Shown here piece after piece: positions 3,943 through 37,396 of a stretch of 64,000 nt of DNA. The position numbers were made by a program, and so were the translations under genes. The DNA is from Aphrocallistes beatrix (lineage: Eukaryota > Porifera > Hexactinellida > Sceptrulophora > Aphrocallistidae): positions 10,575,524 through 10,639,523 of the forward strand of contig OY725488.1 in assembly GCA_963281255.1 (NCBI GenBank), read 5' to 3'. The notes below the pieces were generated by a model. It was not told the DNA's origin. It saw only the letters and a list, made by a program, of their open reading frames with translations, and ran no database searches. How positions within the stretch are numbered: the stretch's first letter is position 1; every line of letters begins with the position of its first letter.

Positions 3943-5031
3943 TCAACATCTTCTATAATACAGAGTTGCATGGTATTTGGCAATGATAGGCTTTATTTTC
4001 TTATTGACACGATTAAGTCTCCACTTCTGTCTCAAATGGATTACCAGAAGCATTGTCACAAAGTATAAATAGTTTAAAGACATTAATGTTGAGTACAAGA
4101 AGTAAAATAGATTTGAAATCCCCCAAAAAATTCGAAAAATTTGATAAAAAAGTATTTCAAAGTTTCGACAAGCGCAGGGAATATTGAATAGAAAATAGAA
4201 GTTACTGGGTCCGAAGAGATTAGCTACGACAAAAAGGGAAATAGCTACAGCTATAAGAATATTAGCAACCTTGAAGTGCAGAGGAATCGTCCTCTCATTA
4301 CGATATGAAGCTCTATCCTTAAATAATCTAGCTTCAGTCTCTCTACTCTTCAAGTGATTGTAGAATCTACGAGCATAGAGTATGTAGAGGACGAAGTCAA
4401 GAGAAAATAGTATTACGAATAAAACTGAATTTAAAATAGCTATTTCATTTTTATAATATGGAAATTCAAGGTCTTCCAAGAGCTGAAAGGCTAAGATTAC
4501 TACACATCTCACAGTTATACAACAGCTCCATCTCTTGATTGTGTTCTCGTAGGGGCAATGGAGATATGCCAGCCAGAGAACTTTCATTAACAAACATGGT
4601 ATTGCAATCTGACAGCTAAAAGCTATGTTCCCGACATACCTCCCACATTTTGCAACCAACAATAAAATATAGGATATCGCTGGATTAGAAATTAGAAATT
4701 TAGAGGCATATTTCTGAATGTCTAAGACCAAACTTTCAAAATTGTATAGAATCTCGCAACAGAGGATTATTATTATAAACATTGATATCATTGATTTAAT
4801 TCTGAGGTTTTTGAGATGGTTTTGATAACAAGGATCTATGAGATCACTCTCAGAAATATTCTTGATATCTCGAGCTAGAAGATACCTCCTCCTCACATAG
4901 TAGCAGAGTACTACTGAGGCTAATAAGCAGAATGTTAGATTAGATAACGAGCACATGTAACTGAATATTCTCAATGTCATTTCTAGCATCTCTTTTGGGA
5001 AATATGTATTATTTTTTAGACTTGAATTCAT
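3943..5031 (-). CDS. Seven-transmembrane protein, subtype A (copy A1)
   Basis: A single-exon gene for a 362-residue membrane protein of a family I do not recognise. Hydrophobic helices fall at about residues 28-46, 80-103, 133-157, 167-186, 196-220, 255-273 and 304-331. Arg and Lys concentrate in loops 1 and 3 and the tail, giving N-outside, C-inside topology. Cytoplasmic landmarks are RRRYLLARDIKNIS and CYQNHLKNLRIKS (loop 1), SRETEARLFKDRAS (loop 3) and a basic tail ending LYYRRC. No DRY or NPxxY motif is present, so it cannot be placed in a standard GPCR class. An N-terminal NSS sequon could be glycosylated. The frame is open further upstream, but the first codon of that extension is TTG. 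The ATG at 5031 (MNSS) is chosen because it matches all paralogs and lies 34 bases from a TATA box. Receptor function is inferred from topology only. Confidence 0.85.
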   Translation of the reverse strand: MNSSLKNNTYFPKEMLEMTLRIFSYMCSLSNLTFCLLASVVLCYYVRRRYLLARDIKNISESDLIDPCYQNHLKNLRIKSMISMFIIIILCCEILYNFESLVLDIQKYASKFLISNPAISYILLLVAKCGRYVGNIAFSCQIAIPCLLMKVLWLAYLHCPYENTIKRWSCCITVRCVVILAFQLLEDLEFPYYKNEIAILNSVLFVILFSLDFVLYILYARRFYNHLKSRETEARLFKDRASYRNERTIPLHFKVANILIAVAISLFVVANLFGPSNFYFLFNIPCACRNFEILFYQIFRIFWGISNLFYFLYSTLMSLNYLYFVTMLLVIHLRQKWRLNRVNKKIKPIIAKYHATLYYRRC

Positions 5032-5064
5032 TTGAAATTTCTTATTTAACCTTCTCAAACTGCA

Positions 5065-5073
5065 TTTATATAT
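5065..5073 (-). promoter_or_regulatory. TATA box of 7TM copy A1
   Basis: Minus-strand atatataaatgc, 34 bases from the ATG at 5031. The same box at the same spacing precedes every intact 7TM gene here, implying a very short 5' leader. Confidence 0.6.
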
Positions 5074-5561
5074 CTGTACAATATCCTTGTTTGGGAAATT
5101 TCTAAACTTAAATTACTTATTTCATTTCCATTTTTCAGCATTGCATTATCTCTGAATCGCCTAGAATTGTTTTGCTGTAATCCATTTTCCCTCACTTTCA
5201 ATATGTAAGTCCTTAATTCATTTAATATACAAGTACAAAAGGTCTCCAATATTACCATCTCGTGATTACACATTAATCAGAGGCAGCGCTAGGCTTTATA
5301 TTATGGAGTGGTTCTTTTTGATATTTTATCCAACATTCACTTTGTTCAGAATAGACCCCAAAGTTCAAGATTATTTAGTAGGGGAATTGTGTTTACTGTA
5401 TAGAATTTGTTAGAACAGCCCAGATTCGTAAAAAGGCGAGGTAAATATTAAAAATCTCGTAACCCTTCTCGTGCCGTCCCTAGTATTAATGAGATAATAT
5501 GATCTCTATGTATGAATTTATGCAGGAAAACTACTTTTTTAAAATCAGTTTTCACAGAGGC
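5074..5561. other. 5' flank of A1, conserved among A copies
   Basis: No gene. Blocks such as cgtgattacacattaatcag (about 5260) and the tttcaatatgtaagt segment recur upstream of pseudo-A (11580-11670) and A5 (20500-20590). A weaker match lies upstream of A7 (27930-28020). Part of this may be promoter-proximal regulation. Confidence 0.45.
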
Positions 5562-5690
5562 GTATCTGGAATCTTTAAAGCGAGAAGTTGAGCAGATGTA
5601 TCAACAGTTAGATATATGCCTTATCCTGGAGAAGGCTGCAAGAAATAGCGAGGAAGCAACCGCCTTAATGGTAGTTAGGCCTCTGTTTTA
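5562..5690 (+). pseudogene. Possible terminal exon encoding a coiled-coil tail
   Basis: After a plausible acceptor (tttcacag) an open frame reads AYLESLKREVEQMYQQLD, continues for about 25 more residues and ends VVRPLF-stop. The Leu/Val/Met spacing suggests a coiled coil. Homologous sequence at 11935-12077 and 20910-20995 has TAA in place of the TAT codon near the start, and the third copy is truncated. Only this copy is open. It lies on the strand opposite the 7TM genes and was multiplied along with them. It may be the remnant of a host gene fragment captured in the ancestral unit; no other exon could be joined to it with confidence. Confidence 0.4.
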
Positions 5691-6455
5691 GTTCTACTAA
5701 GTATGTTAATAAGTGGATAACCAATGAATTATAATGCATTGCAGTCTGCTTAATAAAAGAAATATCTTATGAATTATCATTGGTCATCTTTGTTTGAACT
5801 AAGAGGTGTACATTGGAACAGGAATTTCTATGAATGGAATAACTCGAGACAGCGGAAATGAATATATTCTCCAACTCCCTTTTTTGTGATTTCTACTCAA
5901 GAGTCAATTCGTTATAAAGCAAAAATGACATAAATAATCAATAATTGATAGTACCGTAGATAAATTGGTTATAGTGATATATTGTTATAGTGATGATTTT
6001 TTCAGTTTGTAGTCCCCCAATCAGGGTCGCTTAATATGAATATTCGTTTATTATAACAATTTCCCAACATAGGCTAGTTTGAGTATATCTAAACCTGATG
6101 TCATGACCACTAATAACCATCTTGCTGGTCACATGAAGATTAATGATGAGTATTCTTGAAGCAATAACAAGCCTCAGAGAGTGTGGATCAATTTGGTCTA
6201 AACTATTTGTGAACTGCTACTGAATCACGAATGACCACACCGGCCTTTCGCAATTCAGTGGATGTTCAGGCTGTACTGTCGATGGAGAAAATCAATTTGC
6301 GTTTTTCAAAGAATCTCCCAAATTTTAGAAAAACAGTTTCTTAGTGTGGCCATTACACTCTGTATGCAAAGTTCAGAATGTTAATAATATAAATTAGGTT
6401 ACTGATGAATGTCACAATTAAGTAAAGTTAGAGTAAAGAATACAGACAAATGGGA
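5691..6455. other. Spacer between A1 and B2 with a decayed hairpin
   Basis: No gene. The segment 6150-6375 downstream of B2 recurs at 12810-13030 and 21980-22210. Within it, 6220-6256 is a mutated version of the hairpin that is perfect in the second copy (12881-12917). It also has two copies of the 17-bp gtgatatattggttata motif near 5965. Confidence 0.5.
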
Positions 6456-7517
6456 TCAATATCTTCTATATAAAAGGCCTTCATGGTACTTGGCAACGAT
6501 AGGCTTGATCTTCCTGTTGATACGATTGAGTTTCCACTTCTGTATGAGATAACTACCAACAATCTTAGTCACCAAGTACAAATAATTGGAAGCCATTACA
6601 ATTGTGTATAAAATGTAAGCTAGAGTTGTGATGAGGTTACACGTTTGAATAGAATATTCATCCGTTGTAATAAACTGATTTAGAAGATAGAAAAAAGGGA
6701 CGACTGTAAAAGGAATGACGTAAAAGGAAATGCCCAAAGCTATTATGATGCTAGCTACCTTGAAGTGTATACGAATAAATCTTTCACTAACATACGTGGC
6801 TCTATCCTTAAACAATCTAGCTTCAGTCTCTCTACTCTTCAAGTGCTTGTAGAATCTATGAGCGTAGAGTATGTATAGTACAAGGTCGGACGAATACAAA
6901 AGTGCGTAGGCTAGTGCAACTAGAGATTTCACTTCAGTAGGTGATGTAGTAACATAGGAGAATGACATGGTTATACAAACAGTGCATCTCACCGCTATAC
7001 AGCCACTCCATCTTATCACTGTGTACTTGTAAGGACAATGGTGATATGTCAGCAACAGTATTTTCAGTAGAAGACATGGAATAGTAATATGGCAGTTACA
7101 AGATATGTTACGTACATAGTTGAAATATTTTATAGCGAGAAAAAGATACTTAACAAACACAGGATCAATCATTAGAAATTTTGTATTTTGGATAGGAAAA
7201 AAAACAATCAAACTTGAGAAGTTGTAAAGAATTTCAAAAATGACAATCACAATGATGAAATTTGCTATCATTGATTTTATTTGGAGATTTTTCAGATGAT
7301 TTTGATAACAAGGATTGATAAGATCATCCTTAGAAATCTCCTTGATATCTCGAGCTAGGAGAAACCTCCTCCTCGCAAAGTAGCAGAGGACTACCAATGC
7401 TAATATGCAGAATGCTAGACTAGTGCATGATAATACGTACATCAATATTGTATTATCATTTATTAGATCCATGACTATATCTATATATTGTAGATTATTC
7501 TCCACTGTTGAATTCAT
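6456..7517 (-). CDS. Seven-transmembrane protein, subtype B (copy B2)
   Basis: Single exon, 353 residues, ATG at 7517 (MNSTVENN). Predicted helices at about 26-47, 83-105, 135-158, 168-187, 197-219, 253-277 and 295-319. Subtype B keeps the family cytoplasmic core: RRRFLLARDIKEIS, CYQNHLKNLQIKS, SRETEARLFKDRA and QKWKLNR-x-NRKIKP. It differs in outer segments, has a shorter loop between helices 6 and 7 than A, and ends RRY. The sequon N2-S-T in the short N-terminus suggests an extracellular N-terminal tail. The neighbours A1 and pseudo-A3 are on the same strand but about 1.4-3.2 kb apart with their own promoters, so there is no sign of co-transcription. Confidence 0.85.
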   Translation of the reverse strand: MNSTVENNLQYIDIVMDLINDNTILMYVLSCTSLAFCILALVVLCYFARRRFLLARDIKEISKDDLINPCYQNHLKNLQIKSMIANFIIVIVIFEILYNFSSLIVFFPIQNTKFLMIDPVFVKYLFLAIKYFNYVRNISCNCHITIPCLLLKILLLTYHHCPYKYTVIRWSGCIAVRCTVCITMSFSYVTTSPTEVKSLVALAYALLYSSDLVLYILYAHRFYKHLKSRETEARLFKDRATYVSERFIRIHFKVASIIIALGISFYVIPFTVVPFFYLLNQFITTDEYSIQTCNLITTLAYILYTIVMASNYLYLVTKIVGSYLIQKWKLNRINRKIKPIVAKYHEGLLYRRY

Positions 7518-7551
7518 TTATATTTTCTATTTGATTATCTAATTGTACATC

Positions 7552-7559
7552 TATATATA
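7552..7559 (-). promoter_or_regulatory. TATA box of 7TM copy B2
   Basis: Minus-strand gtatatatag, 35 bases from the ATG at 7517. Confidence 0.6.
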
Positions 7560-10243: not shown

Positions 10244-10510
10244 TATATATATATATATATAAACAATAATCGAGTTTTAATAGTAAGGATATACACATTA
10301 ATCGAGTTTTAATAGTAAGGATTTAGTCACGCTGAGTCTCTCACAAAGTCACAGAGCAAAACATGGATCCCAAAAGGTGCGACCCCCAGTACATTTCACA
10401 GGCCCGACTTTCGAGAAATGAAGGTGTTATATGCCATATTCTTCGATGTGCAGAGTATAATAGCCTCTATTTGTGTCCCCAAGAAGCGAACTATTACTGG
10501 ACAATTTTGG

Positions 10511-10695: not shown

Positions 10696-11417
10696 AGAGC
10701 TATCACCATTAAAACTGAATATAGAATAGCTCATTTTTTAAACTTGCAAAATTATATAGAATCTCACACCAGAAGATTACTATGATGAACATAGAGATCA
10801 TTGATTTAATTCTATGGTTTTTGAGATGGTTTTGATAACAAGGATTTATGAAATCACTTCCAGAAATATTATTGATATCTCGAGCTTGAAGGATTTTGAA
10901 ATTGAGCATCGTGCTGTGATCCTGTACACACATCTCGTGTCTCACAAGCCGGAATTAAACATTGCGGTTTCGAAGAACTCAACCATCCCCCACACAGTCC
11001 AGATTTGGCTCCAGTGACTGTACAAGTGACTGTACTTATTTGGAAAATTGAAATATTACTTAAAGAGACCCGATTTGAGGACGATGAATCCTTGAGAACG
11101 GAGGTTAACACATGATTAAAGTCCAGTCAGAAAAGTTTTACTATTCTGGAAACCAGGCGTTAAAATCTATATTGCTCACTAAACACATATGGATCATTAA
11201 TTGAATGATTTTAAAAGTTGACTAGACTACAAAAATAGTATTAGTTCGCAAAACTTTTCAGCCCACCCTTGTACCTCCTCACATAGCAACAGAGTACTAC
11301 TGAGGCTAATAAACAGAATGTTAGATTAGATAACGAACACATATAACTTAATATTCTCGTTGTCATTTCCAGCATCTCTTTTAGGAAATGTGTACTATTT
11401 TTAAAAATTGAATTCAT
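10696..11417 (-). pseudogene. Subtype A 7TM pseudogene (A3)
   Basis: The start codon region (11415-11417, MNS), helix 1, loop 1 and helix 2 are recognisable by comparison with A1 and A5. The sequence then jumps from helix 2 directly to a short piece of helix 5 (about 10696-10728), and everything 3' of that is missing, replaced by Helitron-like tail sequence. A mariner fragment splits the loop-1 coding region at 10887-11271. With an insertion, an internal deletion and 3' loss it cannot encode a receptor. Its position between B2 and B4 keeps the A-B alternation visible. Confidence 0.85.
10887..11271 (+). mobile_element. Mariner transposase fragment inside 7TM pseudogene
   Basis: The plus-strand frame carries CGFEELNHPPHSPDLAP, followed by KETRFEDDESLRTEV. 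This matches the HPPYSPDLAP region holding the last catalytic acidic residue of mariner transposases and the following KG-RF-DDE segment. The right end, gcaaaacttttcagcccac, is an inverted-repeat-like mariner terminus abutting TA at 11272. The 5' end is truncated, so only the C-terminal part of the transposase remains, with the expected downstream Ser-Asp lost. Confidence 0.75.
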
Positions 11418-12285
11418 TTATATTTCATACTAAACCTTCTCAATCTGCATTTATACACGTTGTACATAAAAATTTAACATTCAAAATCGTGTTCTGGTTT
11501 TAATTTCTCATTTCTTTTTCAGTGGTTAGCATTGCATTATCCTTGAATCGCCTAGAATAGCTTTACTGTAATCCATTTCCCTCACTTTCAATATGTAAGT
11601 ACTTAATTCATTTAATATACAAGTACAAAAGGTCTCCAGTATTTCCATCTCGTGATTACACATTAATCAGAGGCAGCGCCAGGCTTTATATTATGAAGTT
11701 GTTCTTTTTGATATTTTATCCGACATTTACTTTGTTTGGAATAGATCCCAAAGTCTCAAGATTATCTAGTAGGGGAATTGTGTTTACTGTGTAGCATTTG
11801 TTGGAACATCCCGGATTCATAAAAAGACCAGTTAAATATAAAAAATCTCGTAACCCCTCTCGCGTCGCCCCTAGTATTAATGAGATAATATAATCTCTAT
11901 GCAGGAAAACTACTTTTTAAAACAGTTTTCACAAGGGCGTAACTGGAATATTCAAATCGAGAAGTTGAGCAGATGTATCAACAGTTAGATCTCCGCCTTG
12001 TTCTGGAAACAACTGCTAGAAATAGCGAGGAAGCAACCGCCTCCTCTGCCTCACTAGTAGTTAGGCCTCTGTTTTAGTTCTATGTTAATAAGTGGGTCAT
12101 CTTTGTTTGAGCAAAGTGGAGTAGTACATTGAACAGGAATTTCTATGAATGGAATAACTCGAGACAGCGAAAATGTAGTACTATTCTCCAACTCACCTTC
12201 TGTGATTTCTATTCAAGAGTCAATTCGTTATACAGCAAAAATGACATAAATAATCAATAATTGATAGTACCGTAGAGAAATTGGA
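11418..12285. other. 5' flank of pseudo-A3 with second coiled-coil exon relic
   Basis: Colinear with 5032-5960. The coiled-coil exon relic at 11935-12077 has a TAA stop as its second in-frame codon but keeps VEQMYQQLD and the VVRPLF terminus. A TATA-like segment (about 11680) is preserved. No functional gene. Confidence 0.5.
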
Positions 12286-13114: not shown

Positions 13115-14176
13115 TCAATATCTTCTATAAAAAATGTCTTCATGGTACTTGGCAACGATAGGCTTGATCTTCCTGTTGACACGATTGAGTTTCCATTTCT
13201 GTCTGAGATAACTACCAACAATCTTAGTCACTAAGTACAAATAATTGGAAGCCATTACAATTGTGTATAAAATGAAAGAGAGATTTGCCATAAGGTTACA
13301 CACTTGAATGGAATATTCATCCGTTGTAATAAACTGATTTAGAAGATAGAAAAAAGGGACGACTATAAAAGGAATGACGTAAAAGGAAATGCCCAAAGCT
13401 ATTATGATGCTAGCTACTTTGAAGTGTAGACGAATAAATCTTTCACTAAGATATGAAGTTCTATCTTTAAACAATCTGGCTTCAGTCTCTCTACCCTTCA
13501 AGTGCTTGTAGAATATACGAGCGTAGAGTATGTATAGTACAAGGTCGGACGAATACAAGAGTGCGTAGACTAGTGCAACTAGAGATTTCACTTCAGTAGG
13601 TGATGTAGTAACATAGGAGAATGACATGGATATACACACAGCACATCTCACCGCTATACAGCCACTCCATCCTAGTACTGTGTACTTGTAAGGGCAATGG
13701 TGATAGGTCAGCAACAGTACTTTCAATAGAAGACATGGAATAGTAATATGGCAGTCCGAAGAGATGTTACGCATATAATCGAAAAATCTTTTTGCAAGTA
13801 AAAAATATTTAGCAAACACTGGATCAATTTTCAGTAATTTTGTGTTTTGGATAGGAAAAAGTGACACCAAACTCGAGAAGTTGTAAAGCATCTCAAAAAT
13901 GACAATCGCAATTATGAAATTTGCTATCATTGATTTTATTTTGAGATTTTTTAGATGATTTTGATAGCAAGGATTAATTAGATCATCCTTAGAAATATCC
14001 TTGATATCTTGCGCTAGAAGAAACCTCCTCCTCGCAAAGTAACAGAGTATTACCAATGCCAATAAGCAGAATGTTAGACTAGTGCATGATAATACGTAAC
14101 ACAATATTGTATTATCATTCCTTAGATCCATGACTATATCTAGATATTGTAGATTATTCTCCACTGTTGAATTCAT
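13115..14176 (-). CDS. Seven-transmembrane protein, subtype B (copy B4)
   Basis: 353 residues from the ATG at 14176 (MNSTVENNLQYLDIVM). The frame extends 11 codons upstream to an ATG at 14209 (MYIKTKSRKIS). That ATG abuts the TATA box at 14210-14217, so a transcript starting about 25-30 bases downstream would not include it. Relative to B2, differences concentrate in helices 2-3 and the intervening outer loop (for example SLFPIQNTKLLKIDPVFAKYF). Loop 3 reads KGRETEARLFKDRTS, where the usual Ser before RETEAR is Gly. It ends DIFYRRY. No disrupting change is seen. Confidence 0.85.
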   Translation of the reverse strand: MNSTVENNLQYLDIVMDLRNDNTILCYVLSCTSLTFCLLALVILCYFARRRFLLAQDIKDISKDDLINPCYQNHLKNLKIKSMIANFIIAIVIFEMLYNFSSLVSLFPIQNTKLLKIDPVFAKYFLLAKRFFDYMRNISSDCHITIPCLLLKVLLLTYHHCPYKYTVLGWSGCIAVRCAVCISMSFSYVTTSPTEVKSLVALVYALLYSSDLVLYILYARIFYKHLKGRETEARLFKDRTSYLSERFIRLHFKVASIIIALGISFYVIPFIVVPFFYLLNQFITTDEYSIQVCNLMANLSFILYTIVMASNYLYLVTKIVGSYLRQKWKLNRVNRKIKPIVAKYHEDIFYRRY

Positions 14177-14209
14177 TGAAATCTTTCTACTTTTTGTTTT
14201 TATGTACAT

Positions 14210-14217
14210 TTATATAT
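14210..14217 (-). promoter_or_regulatory. TATA box of 7TM copy B4
   Basis: Minus-strand catatataaatg, 34 bases from the ATG at 14176. It decides the start between two in-frame ATGs. Confidence 0.65.
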
Positions 14218-17537: not shown

Positions 17538-17546
17538 CCATTTCAC

Positions 17547-19255: not shown

Positions 19256-20341
19256 TCAACATCTTCTATAATACAGAGCTGCATGGTATTTGGCAACGAT
19301 AGGCTTAATCTTCTCATTAACACGATTGAGTCTCCACTTCTGTCTCAGATAGGTTACCAAAATCCTAGTTACAAAGTATAAATAGTTCAGAGACATTAAT
19401 GTTGAGTACAAGAAGTAAAATAGATTTGAAATCACACAAAAGATTCGAAAAATTTGATAAGAAAATATTTCAAAGTTTCGACTAACGCAGGGAATATTAA
19501 ATAGAAAATAGAAGTTCCTGGGTTCGAAGAGGATAGCAATGACATAAAATGCAATAACCACAGCTATAAGAATACTAGCAAACTTGAAATGTAAACGAAT
19601 CGTCCTCTCACTACGATATGAAGCTCTATCCTTAAACAATCTAGCTTCAGTCTCTCTACTCAAGTGCTTGTAGAATCTACGAGCGTAGAATATGTAGAGG
19701 ATGAAGTCAAGAGAAAATAGAATAATTAATAAAACTGAAAATAGAATAGCTATCTCATTTTGATAATAGGGAAATTCAATGTCTTCCAAGAGCTGAAAGG
19801 TCAAGATTACCACACATCTCACAGTTATACAACAGCTCCATCTCTTGATTGTGTTCCCGTAGGGGCAATGGAGATATGCCAACCAGAGAACTTTCATTAA
19901 CAAACAAGGTATTACGATCTGACAGCTGAAAGCTATGCAATCTACATATTCACTACATTTTTCCGCTATGAATAAAATATAGGATATCGCTGGATTTAAG
20001 TTTGGAAATTTGGAGGTATATTTCTGAATGTTATAAACCAAACTTGCAAAATAATATAGAATCTCGCAACAGAGGATTACTATAATGAACGTAGAGATCA
20101 TTGATTTAATTCTAAGGTTTTTGAGATGGTTTTGATAACAAGGATTTATGAAATCACTGCTAGAAATATTCTTGATATCTCGAGCTAGAAGATACCTCCT
20201 CCTCACATAGTAGCAGAGTACTACTGAGGCTAATAGGAAGAATGTTAGATAAGATAACGAGCACATGTAGCTTAACATGCTCGTTGTCATTTCCAGCATC
20301 TCTTTTGGGAAATGTGTACTATTTTCTACACTTGAATTCAT
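19256..20341 (-). CDS. Seven-transmembrane protein, subtype A (copy A5)
   Basis: 361 residues from the ATG at 20341 (MNSSVENSTHFPKEM). An ATG 19 codons upstream (20398) is in frame but lies upstream of the TATA box at 20375-20384, so it should not be transcribed as a start. Loop 3 lacks one residue (HLSRETEAR where paralogs have HLKSRETEAR), an in-frame codon loss in an otherwise invariant segment. The outer region after helix 2 (YNIQKYTSKFPNLNPAISY) and helix 6 (IAFYVIAILFEPRNF) differ clearly from A1. Tail ends AALYYRRC. Confidence 0.85.
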   Translation of the reverse strand: MNSSVENSTHFPKEMLEMTTSMLSYMCSLSYLTFFLLASVVLCYYVRRRYLLARDIKNISSSDFINPCYQNHLKNLRIKSMISTFIIVILCCEILYYFASLVYNIQKYTSKFPNLNPAISYILFIAEKCSEYVDCIAFSCQIVIPCLLMKVLWLAYLHCPYGNTIKRWSCCITVRCVVILTFQLLEDIEFPYYQNEIAILFSVLLIILFSLDFILYIFYARRFYKHLSRETEARLFKDRASYRSERTIRLHFKFASILIAVVIAFYVIAILFEPRNFYFLFNIPCVSRNFEIFSYQIFRIFCVISNLFYFLYSTLMSLNYLYFVTRILVTYLRQKWRLNRVNEKIKPIVAKYHAALYYRRC

Positions 20342-20374
20342 TCGAAATTTCATATTTAACCTTCTCAATCTGCA

Positions 20375-20384
20375 TTTATATATA
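20375..20384 (-). promoter_or_regulatory. TATA box of 7TM copy A5
   Basis: Minus-strand tatatataaatgc, 34 bases from the ATG at 20341. Confidence 0.6.
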
Positions 20385-21288
20385 AAAATTCCTAACATTC
20401 AAAATCGTTTTTTGGTTTAATTACTTATTTCATTTTCAGTGGTTAGCATTGTTTTATCCCTGAATCGCCTAGAATAGCTTTGCTGTAATCCATTTTCCCC
20501 CACTTTCAATATGTAAGTACTCAATTCATTTAATATACGACAAGTACAAAAGTTCTCCAGTATACTATGATAGCTCGTGATTACACATTAATCAGAGGAG
20601 GCGCGTCAGGCTTTGTATTATGGAGTCTTACATGAGTGGGAATCCCTCGTGGTAGGGTCACGTACCCGCATCGCATCAGGTTTCTTTTGATATTTTATCC
20701 GACATTCACTTTGTTTAGAATAGACCCCTAAGTTTCAAGATTATTTAGTAAGGGAATTGTGTACTGTATAAACTTTGTTAGAACATCCCAGATTCGTAAA
20801 AAGGTAAATATTAAAAATCTCGTGACTCCTCTCGCGCCGTTCCTGGTATTAGTGAGATAATATAATCTCTTTATAGGAAAACTACTTTTTAAAAATCAGT
20901 TTTCACAAGGTCGTAACTGGGATCCTCAAATCGAGAAGTTGAGCAGATGTATCAACAGTTAGATATATGCCTTGTCCTGGAGACGACTGCACTTCTGCGT
21001 GTTTTTATTATACTTTTTTTCGCATAGAACAGAGCTGCGAATGGTTTGATGCGAAAGATTTGGACAATAGACTGTAATTATTATTTATAGTTCCAAGCCA
21101 TGACTTATGTAGGTACCTTAATTTTATTATAGTATATTGAAAAAAACGGGTATTTGTATATTTTCCCACCTTTATATGCATATTTTCACTCTTTTCAACG
21201 AATTTTAAAATATGCTAAAGACTAGTCTTCTGCAGCTGAGTTGGTTTTAGTAGTGTAGATTTCGAGCATCATACCTTTGGATCTACTA
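20385..21288. other. 5' flank of A5 with third coiled-coil exon relic, truncated
   Basis: Colinear with 5074-5640 until about 20995, where the relic (20910-20995) is cut off. The following sequence first resembles foldback-element sequence (gtgtttttattat … cgcatagaacagag), then the Helitron-like long-body interior. A TATA-like block is at about 20609. No functional gene. Confidence 0.45.
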
Positions 21289-22839: not shown

Positions 22840-23901
22840 TCAATATCTTCTATATAAAAGGCCTTCATGGTACTTGGCAACGATAGGCTTGATCTTCCTG
22901 TTGATGCGATTGAGTTTCCATTTCTTTATGAGATAACTACCAACAATCTTACTCACTAAGTACAAATAATTGGAAGCCATTACAATTGTGTATAGAATGA
23001 AAGATAGATTTGCTATAAGGTTACACACTTGAATGGAATATTCGGTCGTAGTGATAAACTGATTGAGCGGATAGAAAAAAGGGACGACTATACACGGAAT
23101 AACGAAAAAGGAAATGCCCAAAGATATTATGATGCTAGCTATCTTAAAGTGTATACGAATACATCGCTCACTAAGATATGACGCTCTATCCTTAAACAAT
23201 CTAGCTTCAGTCTCTCTACCCTTCAAGTGCTTGTAGAATCTACGAGCGTAGAGTATGTATAGTGCAAGGTCGGACGAATACAAGAGTGCCCAGACTAGTG
23301 CAACTAGAGACTTCACTTCAGTAGGAGATGTAGTAACATATGAGAACGACATGGTTATAGACACAGCACATCTCACTGCTATACAACCACTCCATCTTAG
23401 TACTGTGTACTTGTAAGGACAATGGTGATAGGTCAGCAACAGTACTTTCAGTAGAAGACATGGAATAGTTATATGGCATTCAGAAGAGATATTCCGTACA
23501 TAACCGAAAAAGCTTTTAGCAAGAAAAAGCTGTTTAGCAAACACTGGATCGATCATTAGAAATTTTGTATCTTGGATGGGAAAGAAAACAATCGAACTTG
23601 AGAAGTTGTAAAGAATCTCAAAAATGACGATCACAAGTATGAAATTTGCTATCATTGATTTTATTTTGAGATTTTTCAGATGATTTTGATAACAAGGATT
23701 GATAAGATCATCCTTAGAAATCTCCTTGATATCTCGAGTTAGAAGAAACCTCCTCCTCGCAAAGTAACAGAGTATTACCAATGCCAATAAGCAGAATGTT
23801 AGACTAGTGCATGATAATACGTAACTCAATATTGTATTATCATTCCTTAGATCCATGACTATATCTAGATATTGTAGATTATTCTCCACTGTTGAATTCA
23901 T
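22840..23901 (-). CDS. Seven-transmembrane protein, subtype B (copy B6)
   Basis: 353 residues from the ATG at 23901; an upstream in-frame ATG (23934, MYIKTKSRTIS) abuts the TATA box and is rejected as for B4. Distinct positions against B2 and B4 include KQLFLAKSFFGYVRNISSECH before helix 3 and FFVIPCIVVPFFYPLNQFITT across helix 6 and outer loop 3, while the cytoplasmic core (SERCIRIHFKIAS, NRINRKIKP) is kept. Tail motif is SYLIKKWKLNR with Lys in place of Gln. Ends RRY. Intact. Confidence 0.85.
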   Translation of the reverse strand: MNSTVENNLQYLDIVMDLRNDNTILSYVLSCTSLTFCLLALVILCYFARRRFLLTRDIKEISKDDLINPCYQNHLKNLKIKSMIANFILVIVIFEILYNFSSSIVFFPIQDTKFLMIDPVFAKQLFLAKSFFGYVRNISSECHITIPCLLLKVLLLTYHHCPYKYTVLRWSGCIAVRCAVSITMSFSYVTTSPTEVKSLVALVWALLYSSDLALYILYARRFYKHLKGRETEARLFKDRASYLSERCIRIHFKIASIIISLGISFFVIPCIVVPFFYPLNQFITTTEYSIQVCNLIANLSFILYTIVMASNYLYLVSKIVGSYLIKKWKLNRINRKIKPIVAKYHEGLLYRRY

Positions 23902-23934
23902 TGAAATGGTTCTACTTTTTGTTTTTATGTACAT

Positions 23935-23942
23935 TTATATAT
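23935..23942 (-). promoter_or_regulatory. TATA box of 7TM copy B6
   Basis: Minus-strand catatataaatg, 34 bases from the ATG at 23901. Confidence 0.65.
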
Positions 23943-26658: not shown

Positions 26659-27744
26659 TTAACATCTTCTATAATACAGAGTTGCATGGTAATTGGCAAC
26701 GATAGGCTTAATCTTCTCATTAACACGATTGAGTCTCCACTTCTGTCTCAGATAGATTACCAGAAGCATCGTCACAAAGTATAAATAGTTTAGAAACATT
26801 AATGTTGAGTACAAGAAGTAAAATAGATTTGAAGTCCCCCAAAAAATTTGAAATATTTGATATGAAAGTATTTCAAAGTTTCGTTTAACGCCTGGGATAT
26901 TCAATAGATAATTGGGATTGAAGAAGTTAGCTCCGATAAAAAAGGAAATATCTACAGCTATAAGAATACTAGCAACCTTGAAGTGCAGACGAATCGTCCT
27001 CTCATTACGATATGAAGCTCTATCCTTAAAAAATCTAGCTTCAGTCTCTCTACTTTTCAAGTGATTGTAGAATCTACGAGCGTAGAATATATAGAGGACG
27101 AAGTCAAGAGAAAATAGAATTAATAATAATACTGAATCTAGAATAGCTATCTCATTCCGATAATAGGGAAATTCAATGTCATCCAAGAACTGAAAGGCTA
27201 AGGTAACTGCACATCTCACAGTTATCCAACAGCTCCATCTCTTGATTGTATTCTCGTAGGGGCAATGGAGATATGCCAGCCAGAGAACTTTCATTAACAA
27301 ACATGGTATTACAATCTGACAGCTAAAAGCTATGTCCCCGACATAGTTCCCACATTTTGCAGCAAAGAATAAAATATAGGATATCGGTGGATTGAAAATT
27401 GAAAATTTAGAGGCATATATCTGAAAGTCAAAGACCAAACTTGTAAAATAATACAGAATCTCACAACAGAGAATTATTATTATGAACGTAGAAATCATTG
27501 ATTTAATTCTAAGGTTTTTGAGATGGTTTTGATAACAAGGATTTATGAGAGCACTCTTAGAAATATTCTTGATATCTCGAGCTAGAAGATACCTCCTCCT
27601 CACATAGTAACATAGTACTACTGAGGCTAATAAGCAGAATGTTACATAAGATAACAAACTTATTCGGCCTAATATACAGTCAAAAAGCGTCATATCTAGT
27701 ATATCTCTTGGATGTTGTGTAGTATTTTTCATAATAGAATTCAT
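26659..27744 (-). CDS. Seven-transmembrane protein, subtype A (copy A7)
   Basis: 361 residues from the ATG at 27744 (MNSIMKNTTQHPRDI). The open frame runs upstream to a GTG, which is not used as a start here. This is the most diverged A copy: helix 1 region FDCILGRISLLSYVTFCLLAS, helix 6 DISFFIGANFFNPNYLLNIPG (slightly shorter outer loop 3), and loop 3 has EARFFKDRAS in place of EARLFKDRAS. N5-equivalent sequon NTT is near the N-terminus. Tail QKWRLNRVNEKIKP … LYYRRC matches A and C types. It is the last A gene; the next genes to the right are subtype C. Confidence 0.85.
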   Translation of the reverse strand: MNSIMKNTTQHPRDILDMTLFDCILGRISLLSYVTFCLLASVVLCYYVRRRYLLARDIKNISKSALINPCYQNHLKNLRIKSMISTFIIIILCCEILYYFTSLVFDFQIYASKFSIFNPPISYILFFAAKCGNYVGDIAFSCQIVIPCLLMKVLWLAYLHCPYENTIKRWSCWITVRCAVTLAFQFLDDIEFPYYRNEIAILDSVLLLILFSLDFVLYIFYARRFYNHLKSRETEARFFKDRASYRNERTIRLHFKVASILIAVDISFFIGANFFNPNYLLNIPGVKRNFEILSYQIFQIFWGTSNLFYFLYSTLMFLNYLYFVTMLLVIYLRQKWRLNRVNEKIKPIVANYHATLYYRRC

Positions 27745-27777
27745 TAGAAATTTCCTATTTACCTTTCTCAATTGGCA

Positions 27778-27787
27778 TTTATATATA
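27778..27787 (-). promoter_or_regulatory. TATA box of 7TM copy A7
   Basis: Minus-strand gatatatataaatgcc, 34 bases from the ATG at 27744. Confidence 0.6.
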
Positions 27788-29764: not shown

Positions 29765-29772
29765 TATATATA
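29765..29772 (+). promoter_or_regulatory. TATA box of 7TM copy C8
   Basis: ttatatatag, about 35 bases from the ATG at 29808. Confidence 0.65.
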
Positions 29773-29807
29773 GATGCAAGTTGAGGAGCTAAATAGAAAA
29801 TTTCAAA

Positions 29808-30872
29808 ATGAATTCGAGTGTGGAAAATAATGCACAAAGACACTATTTGATTGAGATATTAGATTACACGTATCCATTCACTGATCTAATATTTTGCATT
29901 TTAACCTTGGTAGTACTCTGTTACTATGTGAGGAGGAGGTATCTTCTAGCTCGAGATATCAAGAATATTTCTAAGAGTGATTTCATAAATCCTTGTTATC
30001 AAAACTATCTCAAAAATCTCAGGATTAAATCAATGATTTCTACGTTCATTATTATAATCCTCTCCTGTGAGTTTCTATATAATTTCTCAAGTTTGTTTGA
30101 GTATATTTATATATACGTTTCGGATTTTCTATCCTTCGACCCAATGTCAACCCATCTTCTTTCTTTAGCCTCCGAAATTTTCAATTGGTTAGGCCTCATT
30201 GCTTTTAATTGTATTATTGCTATACCATGCTTGTTAATGAAAGTTCTCTGGCTAGCATATCTGCACTGGCCGTACTCTAACACAGTCAAGAGATGGAGTG
30301 TTTATATAGCAGTGAGGTGTGTTGGAACTGCAGCCTTTTTACTCTTTGAAACAAATAAAATTTCCTATCATAGATTTGAGCTAGTTTTCCTATTTAAAGT
30401 GATAACAGAACTATTTTTAACTCTTGACTTCGTCCTTTACTTATTCTACGCTCGTAGATTCTACATGCATTTGAAGAGTAGAGAGACTGAAGCTAGATTG
30501 TTTAAAGATAGAGCTTCATATCGTAGTGAACGAGGTATTCGACTTCACTTCAAGGTCGCTAGTATTCTTACAACTACAGCTATTTCCTTTTTCGTATTGG
30601 CTATGAACTTCAGAACCATCTGCAATTTACTACCTTATATTTCTCTAATTGAAAAGCTTGCATTAGTAACTAAGATATCGCAACATTTCCAGAATTTATC
30701 TCTTCTATTTTTCATTTTGTTCACAACACTAATGTCTCTAAACTATCTATACTTTGTGACTATGCTTTTGGGAATCTATCTGCGACAGAAGTGGAGACGC
30801 AATCGTGTTAATGAGAAGATTAAGCCTATCGTTGCCAAATACCATGCAGCTCTGTATTATAGAAGATGTTGA
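29808..30872 (+). CDS. Seven-transmembrane protein, subtype C (copy C8)
   Basis: 354 residues, plus strand, opposite to the A/B array. Helices at about 22-41, 75-97, 125-152, 163-181, 190-214, 247-266 and 295-322. Cytoplasmic parts match A (RRRYLLARDIKNISKS, SRETEARLFKDRAS, NRVNEKIKP … YYRRC). The N-terminus (NAQRHYLIEILDYTYPF), the outer loop after helix 2 and helices 3, 5 and 6 are subtype-specific, and loop 2 has HWPYSNTVKRWS in place of HCPY. One variant is YQNYLKNLRIKS, where all others have YQNHLKN. The 3' flank is homologous to that of C9, which faces it tail to tail. Function inferred only from topology. Confidence 0.85.
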   Translation: MNSSVENNAQRHYLIEILDYTYPFTDLIFCILTLVVLCYYVRRRYLLARDIKNISKSDFINPCYQNYLKNLRIKSMISTFIIIILSCEFLYNFSSLFEYIYIYVSDFLSFDPMSTHLLSLASEIFNWLGLIAFNCIIAIPCLLMKVLWLAYLHWPYSNTVKRWSVYIAVRCVGTAAFLLFETNKISYHRFELVFLFKVITELFLTLDFVLYLFYARRFYMHLKSRETEARLFKDRASYRSERGIRLHFKVASILTTTAISFFVLAMNFRTICNLLPYISLIEKLALVTKISQHFQNLSLLFFILFTTLMSLNYLYFVTMLLGIYLRQKWRRNRVNEKIKPIVAKYHAALYYRRC

Positions 30873-31036
30873 TACTTAAGTTATGTATTTATATAAGTTA
30901 TTTGGTAATGTTTCTACATGTGTTTAGAGCTTTAAATTATATCTCTACTTTTTTCAATATTTTTACAATCTCTATAATCATTTAATTAATTACATTCTAT
31001 GATTATATCTACATTTTGATTGTTTCAAAAATTTAT

Positions 31037-31443: not shown

Positions 31444-31823
31444 CAGTACCCATTATGCTAGTTTTGATGCAACATGCAGATACGTACTACTTGTATGTAT
31501 GTTAGTAATCAATTATATAGTAGAGCTCTATTGTAATATGTGGTGCGAACATTTTTGATAAAATTATTGATATAAATTTTAGGATTTCCGTCTTCCCGTG
31601 CACCTCCTCGCACCGCCACTATTTTCCAGCCTCACCATTCAATAAATTTCACCGTTCATTCGATTTTTAGATATTCTACTAATTTCGCCATTCAGTGGAT
31701 TCCACTAAATTCTACTTTTGCTTGACAAAGTAAGATTTTTAATAAATATACATTGATATGTCAATGATATCTAAAAGTACTGAGCAATTAGGGAAAATAT
31801 CTTATATATTCATTACAATCTGT
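31444..31823. other. Spacer and 3' flank of the ankyrin fragment
   Basis: From about 31735 it matches 39380-39466, the 3' flank of the ankyrin gene at 39467, so flank and gene end were copied together. The remainder is unassigned. Confidence 0.5.
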
Positions 31824-32201
31824 TCAATTGATTCCATAGTGAGGTATGAGCAGTTGTCTCATCTGATCAGAGACACTGTAGTCCAATGACAACTCCTCCT
31901 CTCCATTCCACACATCCACACAGCTCCCGTGAAGAAGCAGACACTGCACACACTCCAATCTGTCCCATGCTACCGCCGTGTGGAGTGCGGTGTCTCCGTG
32001 TCCGTTTGAAAGCTCCACAAACTCGGATCGATCTGAGAATGGCACTTGAAGCAAGATATATTCCACTAGCATTCCATTGTCAGTAGCTGTTGCTAGGTGG
32101 AGTGCACTGGAGCTGCTCTTGCCTGTCAGAACTCTCACAACATCTCCTCTCATCTCTCTATCTTCCATCGTCTCTGTCTCACCGGGATTCATCAGCTCTC
32201 T
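31824..32201 (-). pseudogene. 3' fragment of an IkappaB-like ankyrin gene
   Basis: Codes for the last 125 or so residues of the ankyrin family found at 39-64 kb, from RELMNPGETETMED to the HYGIN end, with no stop or frameshift. The 5' part (first three to four ankyrin repeats and start) is missing and the homology stops abruptly at about 32201. The shared 3' flank points to the gene at 39467-40501 as closest source. It lies between direct repeats, about 7 kb from the rest of the family and inside the 7TM cluster. No family-type promoter is seen, so it is treated as a truncated copy. Changes such as LSLDYSVSD (others LPLDYCVSD) suggest relaxed constraint. Confidence 0.8.
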
Positions 32202-32210
32202 CAAATTCAT

Positions 32211-32491
32211 CACATAAAATGTTACACTTATATATCTGTAAACAACAAGCTTATCAGCTGTTTACATATACGTATCGCATTAACTTTGGTATCTGAAATT
32301 TTATGAATAGGACCAAATTTAGAAGCATTCTGTTTTTAGTGCCGGTACTAGTATATGAGATACATTTTTCCATTGGCGTAGCTAAAGGGAAAAAGGGGCA
32401 AGATAATTGTTAAACTATGTTTAGTATCTAGATTTCCGGGGATGGACGGACCGCAGAATTGTAAAGACACGATTCAAAAGAATATGACTTC
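32211..32491. repeat. Direct repeat flanking the ankyrin fragment, right copy
   Basis: See the left copy at 31037-31443. This version lacks the hairpin and the extra segment, and starts at the 5' breakpoint of the ankyrin fragment. Confidence 0.75.
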
Positions 32492-32618
32492 TTTAATTTA
32501 ATTGTTTAATTTAATAAAATGATTATAAATAATCCAAAACTACTGGAATGAGTAGAGATAATGTCTAAACACATGTAGAAACATAACAACATACTAGTTT
32601 ATATACAAAACTTGAGTA

Positions 32619-33692
32619 TCAACATCTTCTATAATACAGAGTTGCATGGTACTTGGCAACGATCGGCTTAATCTTCTCATTGACACGATTGAGTCTCCAC
32701 TTCTGTCGCAGATAGATTACCAGAAGCATAGTCACAAAGTATAAATAGTTTAGAGACATTAGTGTTGTGAAAAAAATAAAAAATAGAGTAGAAAAATCCT
32801 GGAAATTTTGCGATATCTCTACCAATAAACGTGTTTTGAAGTTCCCTTGACTTTGAAAAAAATAAGTGAATAAATCGTGTATAGTTTGGAAGTAGACAGC
32901 CAATATGAAAAAGGAAATAGCTATAGTTATAAGAATACTAGCGACCTTGAAGTGTAGACGAATACCTCGCTCACTACGATATGAAGCTCTATCTTTAAAC
33001 AATCTGGCTTCAGTCTCTCTACTTTTCAAGTGCTTGTAGAATCTACGAGCGTAGAGTATGTAGAGGACGTAGTCAAGAAGAAAAAATAGTTCTGTTATCA
33101 CATTAAATAGAAAAACTATCTCCAATTTATAATAAGGAATATTAGTTGCTTCAAAGAGTAAAAAGGCTGCTTTCGCCACACACCTCACTGCCATATAAGC
33201 ACTCCATCTCTTTACTGTGTTAGAGTACGGCCAGTGCAGATATGCTAGCCAGAGAACTTCCATTAACAAGCAAGGTATAGCAATGGTACAGTTAAAAGGT
33301 ATGATGGCTAACCATTTGATACATTTTGAGGCTAAGAAAAGAAGACGAGTTGACGTTGGATCAAAAATTTTATTGTTCGAGACGTATACATAAAAATATT
33401 CGAACAAACATGAGCAATTATATAGGAACTCACAAGAGAGGATTATAATAATGAACGTAGAGATCATCGACTTAATCCTAAGATTTTTGAGATGGTTTTG
33501 ATAACAAGGATTTATGAGATCACTCTTAGAAATATTCTTGATATCTCGAGCTAGAAGGTACCTCCTCTTCACATAGTAACAGAGTACTACCAAGGTTAAT
33601 ATGCAAAATGCTAGATCAGTGAATGGATACGTACAATCTAATATCTCAATCAAATAGTGTTTTTGTGTAATATTTTCCACAGTCGAATTCAT
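32619..33692 (-). CDS. Seven-transmembrane protein, subtype C (copy C9)
   Basis: 357 residues, ATG at 33692 (MNSTVENITQKHYLIEIL). Strongly similar to C8 in N-terminus, loops 1-3 and tail. Differences cluster in the outer loop after helix 2 (YVYVSNNKIFDPTSTRLL), around helix 3 (KCIKWLAIIPFNCTIAIPCLLMEV, with Glu where paralogs have Lys) and in outer loop 3, which is three residues longer (DLFTYFFQSQGNFKTRLLVEI). Loop 1 begins VKRRYLLARD, so one Arg is replaced by Lys. Convergent with C8 and divergent from pseudo-C10, which suggests that C copies arose by inverted duplication. Intact. Confidence 0.85.
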   Translation of the reverse strand: MNSTVENITQKHYLIEILDCTYPFTDLAFCILTLVVLCYYVKRRYLLARDIKNISKSDLINPCYQNHLKNLRIKSMISTFIIIILSCEFLYNCSCLFEYFYVYVSNNKIFDPTSTRLLFLASKCIKWLAIIPFNCTIAIPCLLMEVLWLAYLHWPYSNTVKRWSAYMAVRCVAKAAFLLFEATNIPYYKLEIVFLFNVITELFFLLDYVLYILYARRFYKHLKSRETEARLFKDRASYRSERGIRLHFKVASILITIAISFFILAVYFQTIHDLFTYFFQSQGNFKTRLLVEISQNFQDFSTLFFIFFTTLMSLNYLYFVTMLLVIYLRQKWRLNRVNEKIKPIVAKYHATLYYRRC

Positions 33693-33727
33693 TTTGAAAT
33701 TTTCTATTTAGTTCCTCAACTTGTATC

Positions 33728-33736
33728 TATATATAC
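33728..33736 (-). promoter_or_regulatory. TATA box of 7TM copy C9
   Basis: Minus-strand gtatatatag, 36 bases from the ATG at 33692. Confidence 0.6.
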
Positions 33737-34834: not shown

Positions 34835-34895
34835 ATGAATTCGACTGTGGAAAATATTGCACAAAAACACTATTTGTTTGAGATATTAAGTTACG

Positions 34896-35947
34896 CCATA
34901 GCCTACTATATATAAGGCCTAAGAGTAACTTAACCAGGGATGCAGTAGAAGATGGATGAAGAAATACATCAGCTACCTTAAATCATTAACATAACACAAT
35001 AGAGCTAAGGAATGTATTACCAGCATATATAAATATGGTGCCAAAGCACCCATATCCGTTGTTAAAATTTAGATTAGCCATCAAATGATTGCGCAACAGG
35101 TTATATTTGGGTCAAATTTAGTGATTTTCAGAGGCCGTTTAAGGGCACTTCTAAGTGTTTTTATTTTTTTGCATAGAACTGAGAAATGAATGTGTTAATA
35201 CTAAAAATTTGGAATTTTTTCATGGAATATTCTTACATTCCAGTGTTGCTATGGAAACGTGTTTTGGCCGGTTGGGGCTATATCTTGAAAACAGCGATAG
35301 CTAGACATTCAAATATAATCCCATTTGATAGCAAATAGGCTGCTTCCTATTTAACTATAATACAATTTCTGTGTCTAAATTCAATGGTTTACGAGATATT
35401 TGACAAATTACCAAATGTGACCAATATGATAAATTGTCTAATAACTCGTAAATTATTGAATTAAGACACAGAAATTGTATTATAGCTTAATAGGAAGTAG
35501 CCTATTTGCTATCAAATGAGATTAAATTTGAATGTCTAGCTATCGTTGTTTTCAAGATATAGCCCCAACTGACCAAAACACGTTTCCATAGTAAGAATAT
35601 TCCATGAAAAAATTCCAAATTTTTCGTATTAACACATCCACTTCTCAGTTCTATGCGAAACACTTCATAATAAAAACACTTAGAAGTGCCCTTAAACAAC
35701 CTCTGAAAATCACGAAATTTGACCCAAATATAGCCTGTTGCGGAATCATTTGATGACTAATCTATATTTTAACAACGAATATGGGTGCTTTGACACCATA
35801 TTTATATATGCTGGTAATACATTCCTAAGCTCTATTGTGCTTTGTTAATGATTTAAGGCAGTTCATGTATTTCTTCAACCATCTTCTACTGCATCCCTAG
35901 TGCCAAATTTGCAAGTTACTCTGGGGCCTTATTATAGTAGGCTATGG
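34896..35947. mobile_element. Foldback element, complete copy, with TTACG target duplication
   Basis: Begins ccatagcctactatatataa and ends with the complement. TTACG flanks at 34891-34895 and 35948-35952. Nearly the whole 1052-bp length is two inverted arms centred near 35430. No open frame. It lies within codons of helix 1 of pseudo-C10, and C8 serves as the empty site. Confidence 0.85.
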
Positions 35948-36431
35948 TTACGCGTATCTATTCCTTGATCGAACATTTTGCATATTAACCTTGGTAGTAC
36001 TCTGTTACTATGTGAGGAGGAGGTACCTTCTAGCTCGAGATATCAAGAATATTCTAAAATGATTTCATTGGTCCTTGTCATCAAAACCATCTCAAAAATC
36101 TTAGGATTAAATCAATGATCTCTACGTTCATTATTACAATCCTCCCCTGTGAGTTTATGTATAATTTCTCAAATTTGTTCGGGTTTATTTATTTATGCGT
36201 CTCATATTTTCAAAATTTCAATTCAATGTCAACCCATCATCTTTTATTAGTTTTAAAATTTTTCAATTGAGTAGCGTTCATAGCTTTTAACTGTTATATT
36301 GCTATACTATGCTTGTTAATGAAAGTTATCTGGGTAGCATATCTGCACTGGCTATACTATAAAACAGTCAAGAGATGGAGCGTTTATATAGCAGTGAGAT
36401 GTGTTGGAACTCCAGCATTTTTAGTGTGCTT

Positions 36432-37019
36432 CCTATAGTATTAGTATAGTAGCATAGCTACTATACTAATAGTATAGGATGCACAGTACTAAAATGAGGA
36501 TGTTCCGGCCGTCCGAAATTCGTGTCCTGACCAGAGTTTAAGAGATATCGTCTTGAAATTTTACAGGAGGTGCAAAGTGATATGGAGATGTGCACCTCGG
36601 TGTTCACACCTCGCTGAGTTCACACCTCTTCGAGATAGGTGACAAAATGTGCTGGCTAATCAAATTCGATTATTTTGTAGTGCAAATACATTGGAATAAA
36701 ATAGTATTGACTTATGCATACAATCAAAAGAACTATTTGTGATTGAAATTCATTGGTTCATGTGACAACCAATCAATTATCAGCCTTTTATAATGTCATT
36801 CATACGATTCTATTTCATATAAATGATTGAATACTGCTATTTTCAGTCTACAATTTGATTGTTAACAACAATTAAAGTGTGTTATATGCTACGATCAATT
36901 AATTCGATCATAAAATAACTTTTAACAACATGGACTGGAATTGATTATTTAAGTATAATAATAAAGGTGACTTTAGGTGACTTATGAGATTTGGAAGCAC
37001 ACTTCCATCCAGTCTGTGG
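36432..37019. mobile_element. Insertion in pseudo-C10 with inverted ends and a long terminal hairpin
   Basis: gtgtgcttcc near 36431 and ggaagcacac near 37000 are inverted. Just inside the left end, 36436-36495 forms a hairpin with arms around atagtattagtatagtag. Class unknown; boundaries approximate, and no clean target duplication was found. Confidence 0.5.
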
Positions 37020-37396
37020 GGGGTTTTTTATTACTCATTGAAACAAGTAAAATTTTCTATTATAGATTGGAGATAGCTTGCCTGTTTACAGTGATAACAG
37101 AACTATTCTTAATTATTGACTTCGTCCTCTACTTATTCTACGCTCGTAGATTCTACAAGCACTTAAAAAGTAGAGAGACTGAAGCTAGATTGTTCAAAGA
37201 TAGAGCATCTTATCGTAGTGAGCGAGGTATTCGTCTACACTTCAAGGTCGCTAGTATTCTTGTAACTATAGCTATTTCCTTTTTGGTATTGGCTATTAGC
37301 TTCCAAACCTTCAGCAATTTACTATTTTATATTTATTTAAGTAAATGGAGCAACGAAACACCTTTATTAGTAACTAAGATTGGACTCAGAAACTGA

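Follow-up and report, generated by a model that had tools for sequence, protein, structure and literature searches.

Does the run of single-exon genes in this part of the genome of the glass sponge Aphrocallistes beatrix encode receptors, and would such receptors be chemosensory? Within the window, that is, the whole stretch of 64,000 nucleotides analysed, the initial annotation had described eight intact and two broken genes for proteins of 353-362 residues. We consider it reasonably probable, given the modelled fold, that the cluster is a tandem array of a large GPCR-fold family of seven-helix receptors that is expanded in the glass sponge, novel in sequence and putatively chemosensory.

The ORF list and tblastn searches confirmed eight intact single-exon genes and two broken copies at 3943-37384 (see table), and part of a third broken copy was found just ahead of the window, at C1:10575246-10575503. 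The described length range holds when all eight genes are counted from a common MNS start, which is favoured for the gene at 13115-14209 because the longer ORF has its first ATG within reach of the TATA box, the two overlapping. The eight window proteins are 50-88% identical in pairwise comparison, and dN/dS was 0.28-0.49 in seven within-subgroup pairs; the window genes are under purifying selection. These values, together with 174 merged family places genome-wide, exclude chance ORFs.

Table. Receptor-like genes, broken copies and TATA boxes in the window (positions counted from its first nucleotide; ORF lengths from ATG to stop).
Feature	Position	Strand	Remarks
Intact 7TM receptor-like gene	3943..5031	-	ORF 362 aa; structure modelled; served as genome query
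Intact 7TM receptor-like gene	6456..7517	-	ORF 353 aa; structure modelled
Broken copy	10715..11458	-	tblastn pieces 11458-11274 and 10897-10715, gap ~375 bp; last two thirds not found
Intact 7TM receptor-like gene	13115..14209	-	ORF 364 aa; 353 aa from common MNS start
Intact 7TM receptor-like gene	19256..20398	-	ORF 380 aa; 361 aa from common MNS start
Intact 7TM receptor-like gene	22840..23934	-	ORF 364 aa; 353 aa from common MNS start
Intact 7TM receptor-like gene	26659..27744	-	ORF 361 aa
Intact 7TM receptor-like gene	29808..30872	+	ORF 354 aa
Intact 7TM receptor-like gene	32619..33692	-	ORF 357 aa
Broken copy	35949..37384	+	tblastn pieces spread over three frames and broken by in-frame stops; ~570 bp gap at 36426-36998; C-terminus not recovered
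TATA box	5063..5070	-	39 bp before start codon of 3943-5031; coordinates derived from distances
TATA box	7550..7557	-	40 bp before start codon of 6456-7517
TATA box	14207..14214	-	38 bp before MNS start of 13115-14209; overlaps longer ORF's first ATG
TATA box	20373..20380	-	39 bp before MNS start of 19256-20398; 27 bp before Met used by script
TATA box	23932..23939	-	38 bp before MNS start of 22840-23934; overlaps longer ORF's first ATG
TATA box	27776..27783	-	39 bp before start codon of 26659-27744
TATA box	29767..29774	+	41 bp before start codon of 29808-30872
TATA box	33726..33733	-	41 bp before start codon of 32619-33692

The genome-wide census, made with two queries, merged 222 rows (111 per query) into the 174 places, a lower bound that refers to places rather than confirmed genes and counts in pieces of a foldback element; 102 of the places are open over at least 900 bp. 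The foldback element itself spreads copies of the 5' half of one receptor, which lie face to face at several sites. Tandem duplication has multiplied the family, which is large. Mitochondrial traits of this genome, the genetic code among them, point to Hexactinellida, and its homeodomains (19 matches, 12 of them read) suggest a sponge-like set. In the same genome, a single-exon search gave one class A match, against the 102 open places counted for the new family; 7tm_2 and 7tm_3 genes were numerous by Pfam models and G-alpha genes were present. The new family may rank among the larger receptor families of the glass sponge. For comparisons across the family we used an alignment of 64 members (A1) drawn from 82 ORFs; the 18 left out were 7 repeats of window genes, 9 ORFs of 250-324 aa and 2 full-length ORFs (L044:8582-9691 and L046:635-1744).

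Relationships to known families were assessed using profile searches. A Pfam scan of the 64 members gave 28 families at E up to 1, of which 25 were listed and the remaining three, judged by the order of the table, matched one member each; 7tm_1, 7tm_2, 7tm_3, TAS2R and the nematode Sr profiles were all absent from the 25 listed families, and Sr profiles were likewise missing from a scan of 7 receptors. The best E-value among the listed families was 0.0029, for TMIE in one member. A PDB profile search with a ceiling of E 10 yielded a single match, to what its name suggests is a designed membrane protein (E 0.15). The search of NCBIfam, a prokaryote library, covered 6 of the 64 proteins in the alignment. 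The annotated lack of a sequence match to any GPCR class therefore stood among the Pfam matches listed and in the PDB profile search. A known transporter or enzyme, a strong match to which the annotation had named among the findings that would overturn its reading, was rejected as an identity, since neither the listed Pfam matches nor the NCBIfam and PDB searches brought up a sequence match of weight.

A simple hydropathy scan found 6-9 peaks per protein, with seven peaks in five of the eight window proteins, and both structure models contained seven long membrane helices plus shorter ones, in agreement with the seven hydrophobic helices first proposed. Positive-inside topology was also recovered: charge bias predicted an extracellular N-terminus and a cytoplasmic C-terminus in all 64 members. 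The predicted N-terminus averages 11 residues within the aligned stretch, and loop 1 has ~34 residues (25-38), far more than the loop 1 of class A receptors. Across the family, cytoplasmic faces are conserved and extracellular faces variable. In all 64 members TM3 ends without [DE]R[Y], TM7 lacks NPxxY (or DPxxY) and TM6 lacks CWxP, so that the reported absence of DRY and NPxxY extends from the window to the aligned family. Cysteines occur in both the TM3 and extracellular loop 2 stretches of 10/64 members, counted by presence irrespective of pairing.

The structure prediction proposed as a check gave a GPCR-type seven-helix bundle for both products modelled, at middling confidence and from 8 sequences. 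The models align with GPCRs in helix order over ~230-285 residues, with no Foldseek E-value below 0.001 for either. PDB seven-helix entries are dominated by GPCRs, which are therefore favoured in any structural ranking; the matches listed were mostly class A, and TAS2R, which stood in the first row for model 1, tied with others, did not appear among the 50 matches listed with model 2, an absence that does not count against a TAS2R-type fold. An AlphaFold-database screen elsewhere required pLDDT above 70 and E < 1e-9, according to the excerpted text of that study (PMC12716839). The predicted fold of the new family is a GPCR-type seven-helix bundle, which would make its members GPCRs in the broad sense.

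Whether such a fold places the proteins within a known group was judged from likenesses and differences. Adhesion/secretin (7tm_2) and glutamate (7tm_3) receptors have a large N-terminal domain, unlike the new family, and the bitter-taste type differs in that TAS2R was not among the Pfam families listed. The insect OR/GR superfamily (7tm_6, 7tm_7) comprises large 7TM families that lack GPCR motifs, as here, but have the N-terminus inside; an insect-type identity was rejected on the N-out prediction in 64/64 members, and with Sr profiles missing among the matches listed, the annotated lack of insect-type and nematode chemoreceptor matches was sustained. Insect odorant receptors do illustrate that a chemosensory family with seven helices can lie outside the GPCRs, a precedent which, together with the failure of every GPCR sequence motif tested, would suit a non-receptor membrane protein such as a transporter, channel, scramblase or enzyme. 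We regard that reading as very unlikely, because the models follow GPCR helix order, the predicted topology is uniformly N-out, and no transporter or enzyme profile reached a meaningful E among the Pfam matches listed. Choanoflagellates and their kin have new GPCR families (RSF, Hi-GOLD, GPCR-TKL/K and GPRch1-3) which, like the present one, are 7TM families outside the known classes and were found by clustering and fold; the excerpted text describes no glass-sponge family of this kind, and the distinction is drawn by description, not by sequence (PMC12716839).

The proteins could alternatively be very diverged class A (7tm_1) receptors in which DRY and NPxxY were lost, forming a derived glass-sponge branch of a family known from demosponges and not a family apart. 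We find this doubtful. It is consistent with the class A majority among the listed structural matches and with a shared predicted architecture of seven helices, external and short N-terminus, and basic cytoplasmic loop 3 and tail. An acidic residue in TM2 of all 64 members (E in 62, D in 2) presumably recalls D2.50. R153 occurs in 27/64 members and P160, the conserved proline starting loop 2, in 59/64; the 25/64 with both have an arginine at the TM3 end seven residues before the proline, a spacing that we take to be that of R3.50 and the loop-2 proline in class A, although this is a lead only and the eight window genes all carry a residue other than R at position 153. In Amphimedon queenslandica, 126 receptors of the rhodopsin type fall into groups restricted to sponges; in the excerpted account, its AqRho-A to E are large groups without bilaterian orthologues, which resemble the new family as sponge expansions but were gathered by Pfam domain search, the comparison being one of descriptions (PMC4302439). 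Against a class A origin, 7tm_1 was not among the matches listed for the 64 members, and the family departs from class A in its TM6 and TM7 motifs and in the length of loop 1. Alignment of A1 to the genome's one 7tm_1 match with hhalign also found nothing beyond 21 N-terminal residues at 2% probability, a weak test with a single template. A Pfam-based GPCR count of the kind described for Amphimedon in that excerpt (PMC4302439) would miss the new family, because it has no meaningful Pfam match among those listed.

Accepting GPCR-fold receptors leaves the question of what they sense. They might carry signals inside the sponge's cells or from one of its cells to another, in development, allorecognition or microbe sensing as immunity, rather than in environmental chemosensation, a possibility to which we give limited credence. 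To our knowledge sponges have neither neurons nor sense organs, nor an olfactory organ, which fits own-cell signalling, as does the neighbouring cluster of ankyrin genes, likewise close copies of one another. The glass sponge Aphrocallistes vastus also has a tandem, largely single-exon expansion of AIG1-domain genes linked to pathogen recognition (PMC10282587, excerpted text). The pattern of variable outside and conserved inside, however, fits both functions. The annotation had argued from intronless tandem arrays to chemosensation; the family is indeed large and tandem, but the inference carries little weight. Glass sponges have many genes with a single exon (Table 1 of PMC10282587 lists 12,409 single-exon transcripts for A. 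vastus, which has 19,578 genes), so a lack of introns is weak evidence, and single-exon structure was given up as a chemoreceptor sign.

Under the favoured reading of a putatively chemosensory family, the receptors may serve a nerveless animal's sensing of its surroundings. The variable extracellular half would bind a ligand, most likely a peptide or small molecule that comes from the water, from food, from microbes or from other cells. The conserved cytoplasmic half, made up of loop 1 with its unusual length, loop 2 with its P-Y turn, an HLKSRE-type loop 3 and an N...KIKP...YH tail, would then activate one of the sponge's G-alpha proteins. Ligand preference would diverge among paralogues as tandem copies arise and are lost, a course known from other families of chemoreceptors. 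If these are receptors, glass sponges would clearly exemplify a nerveless animal with an extensive sensory repertoire, and the conserved cytoplasmic residues would form a testable set for G-protein coupling without DRY or NPxxY switches. A bolder version, which we think improbable, is that glass sponges evolved their own chemosensory system on the GPCR fold, independently of class A, with more than 100 intact receptors in a nerveless, largely syncytial body, and that hairpin copies of a receptor promoter and 5' half, made by a foldback transposon, add small-RNA control of receptor use.

A TATA box lies just upstream of all eight intact window genes, while 32 of the 64 aligned family members lack one at that distance. 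TATA boxes were dropped as a receptor-specific trait, since the five single-exon ankyrin ORFs adjoining the cluster also carry one, 57-88 bp upstream.

We searched the window for open reading frames and recovered, with the same counts and coordinates, the eight intact and two broken single-exon genes reported in the initial annotation. All eight intact ORFs share a Met-Asn-Ser (MNS) beginning, from which they run for 353-362 aa, and they form three subgroups with identities of 78-88% within and 50-62% between (n = 8). A further broken member lies just before window base 1 (C1:10575246-10575503, minus strand; residues 1-84, 48% identical, one stop). A C-terminal fragment of an ankyrin gene (31818-32243, minus strand; 85-94% identical) sits between two receptor-like genes, and 39467-63666 holds five intact single-exon ankyrin-repeat genes (~82-93% identical) with asparagine runs whose length varies widely among copies.

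Receptor-like genes of the window and foldback element at locus L066 (C4:2165300-2167000)
Feature	Coordinates	Strand	Detail
Intact single-exon receptor-like ORF	3943-5031	-	ATG-to-stop ORF
Intact single-exon receptor-like ORF	6456-7517	-	ATG-to-stop ORF
Intact single-exon receptor-like ORF	13115-14209	-	ATG-to-stop ORF
Intact single-exon receptor-like ORF	19256-20398	-	ATG-to-stop ORF
Intact single-exon receptor-like ORF	22840-23934	-	ATG-to-stop ORF
Intact single-exon receptor-like ORF	26659-27744	-	ATG-to-stop ORF
Intact single-exon receptor-like ORF	29808-30872	+	ATG-to-stop ORF
Intact single-exon receptor-like ORF	32619-33692	-	ATG-to-stop ORF
Broken receptor-like copy	10715-11458	-	
Broken receptor-like copy	35949-37384	+	
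Foldback element	L066:299-1587		Terminal inverted repeats with iterated TATATATCGGC units
9-bp direct repeat	L066 at 290 and 1588		TAACCTAAA, flanking the foldback element

The family is present in many copies across the genome (100.5 Mb, 28 contigs; six-frame search). One window member and a divergent member, used as queries, each gave 111 matches, which merged into 174 places that include some fragments and pieces of a mobile foldback element; 102 places were open over at least 900 bp, spread over 19 contigs, with 61 of these in 12 clusters. Iterative hmmsearch of forty fetched stretches, the window and loci from the genome search with the window member yielded 82 family ORFs, 7 being repeats of window genes, and 64 of the family ORFs entered the alignment (A1). 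The eight window genes formed one clade in the family tree (support 100/99), and members clustered strongly by contig (20 changes vs a shuffled mean of 42), consistent with birth and death through local duplication.

Lysine plus arginine counts were higher in predicted inside than outside loops in 64/64 members (mean 25.7 vs 6.6), which bears out the positive-inside topology first described for the window genes and predicts an outside N-terminus. The same orientation is found in GPCRs, which the family resembles in its predicted fold, and not in insect receptors, from which the family differs in predicted topology. Across the 64 members, conservation was much stronger in cytoplasmic than in extracellular loops (entropy 1.81 vs 2.90, p = 7 × 10−18) and stronger in inner than in outer membrane halves (1.79 vs 2.62), and dN/dS was 0.20-0.28 inside and 0.29-0.69 outside. 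Receptors with a common signalling partner and different ligands would show such a pattern.

The same or a like residue occupied E93, P160, Y161, R175, D212, Y216, R230, Y321, N343 and Y353 (numbering of the 3943-5031 gene) in 60 to 64 of the 64 members, or 59 for P160. DRY, NPxxY and CWxP occurred in none of the 64, in agreement with the earlier remark that the first two are lacking. The first cytoplasmic loop, at ~34 residues (25-38), is far longer than its class A counterpart and sets the family further apart from that class. An arginine lies seven residues upstream of the loop-2 proline in 25/64 members and in 0/8 window genes; in class A, R3.50 and the proline of loop 2 are spaced alike, a lead that may point to distant class A ancestry.

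Judged by sequence, family members look like working genes. Purifying selection acts on the window genes (NG86 dN/dS 0.28-0.49, seven within-subgroup pairs), and each of the eight has a TATA box ~40 bp upstream of the MNS start. In genes 13115 and 22840 this box and the ATG of the longer ORF overlap, making the MNS start the likelier one. TATAWAWR was found 140-200 bp upstream of the TM1 end in 32/64 family genes and was not found in this interval in the other 32; a more distant upstream control interval contained it in 2/64 (Fisher p = 6 × 10−10, n = 64 genes). We dropped the TATA box as a receptor trait, since such boxes also lie upstream of the five ankyrin genes and are therefore not receptor-specific.

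In the mechanism we propose, the variable outer half would bind ligands, the conserved inner half would activate G proteins and the repertoire would grow through tandem duplication; we infer that members are expressed, have a ligand and couple to a G protein, whereas copy number and selection are read directly from the genome and fold and topology come from prediction. A chemosensory role is suggested by analogy, and identical traces would be expected from microbe sensing or from signalling between cells within the sponge.

Single-exon searches of the genome, which undercount genes whose 7TM domain is interrupted by introns, gave one match to 7tm_1, 36 to 7tm_3 (31 above cut-off) and 134 to 7tm_2 (many being pieces), together with several G-alpha genes (54 matches including exon pieces and weak ones). 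The sole 7tm_1 match (C10:4157164-4158087, locus L049) belongs to a 618-aa ORF for a class A-like receptor. Many 7tm_2 matches crowd at ~4.9-5.9 Mb on C4, often as two exon-like pieces, perhaps a second tandem receptor expansion. No glass-sponge family of this kind was described in titles and abstract openings among the best matches in the open-licence literature. As excerpted, the Oopsacas survey of G proteins and GPCRs gives G-alpha counts and frizzled only (PMC10280926), and Amphimedon receptors were gathered by Pfam domain (PMC4302439), which would miss the receptor-like family.

Homeodomain matches numbered 19, and the 12 read include what we take to be Msx-, NK-, Bar-, POU- and LIM-like types, with no Hox among them, a set more in keeping with a sponge than with a bilaterian. 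COX1 on contig C28 (locus L067) contains 14 TGA, no TGG, 42 ATA and 16 AGA codons. Several of the AGA codons fall at positions typically occupied by Ser or Gly in animals, and the ORF adjoining cox1 we take to be nad3-like. Codon usage and gene neighbourhood on C28 match those reported for glass sponges, and together with the homeodomain set they make a hexactinellid the most likely host. According to the excerpted source, AGR is reassigned to serine, UGG is near-absent and AUA is preferred in that group, nad3 adjoins cox1 in A. vastus, and AGR-to-serine reassignment is elsewhere known only in some bilaterian groups (PMC2267718). Single-exon transcripts number 12,409 in the 80.3-Mb genome of A. 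vastus and 9,872 in the 61.5-Mb genome of O. minuta (excerpt of PMC10282587).

The foldback element, fully read from one copy only, holds at L066 the 5' half of a receptor gene of the C8 cluster (family members on contig C8) in inverted orientation, including ~40 bp of upstream DNA with the TATA box. Its arms (475 bp) are 98.5% identical, with 95-96% identity to the C8 gene, and L066 440-1400 as RNA has a folding energy of −706 kcal/mol (z −45). Receptor-bearing copies occur in at least 9 places on 8 contigs (C1, C4, C6, C7, C14, C15 twice, C16, C17). At 5 of these places the arms face each other within ~1 kb, and terminal repeats lacking the receptor part are also present elsewhere. If transcribed, the element would give a hairpin RNA matching receptor genes and might in this way supply RNA that acts against them.
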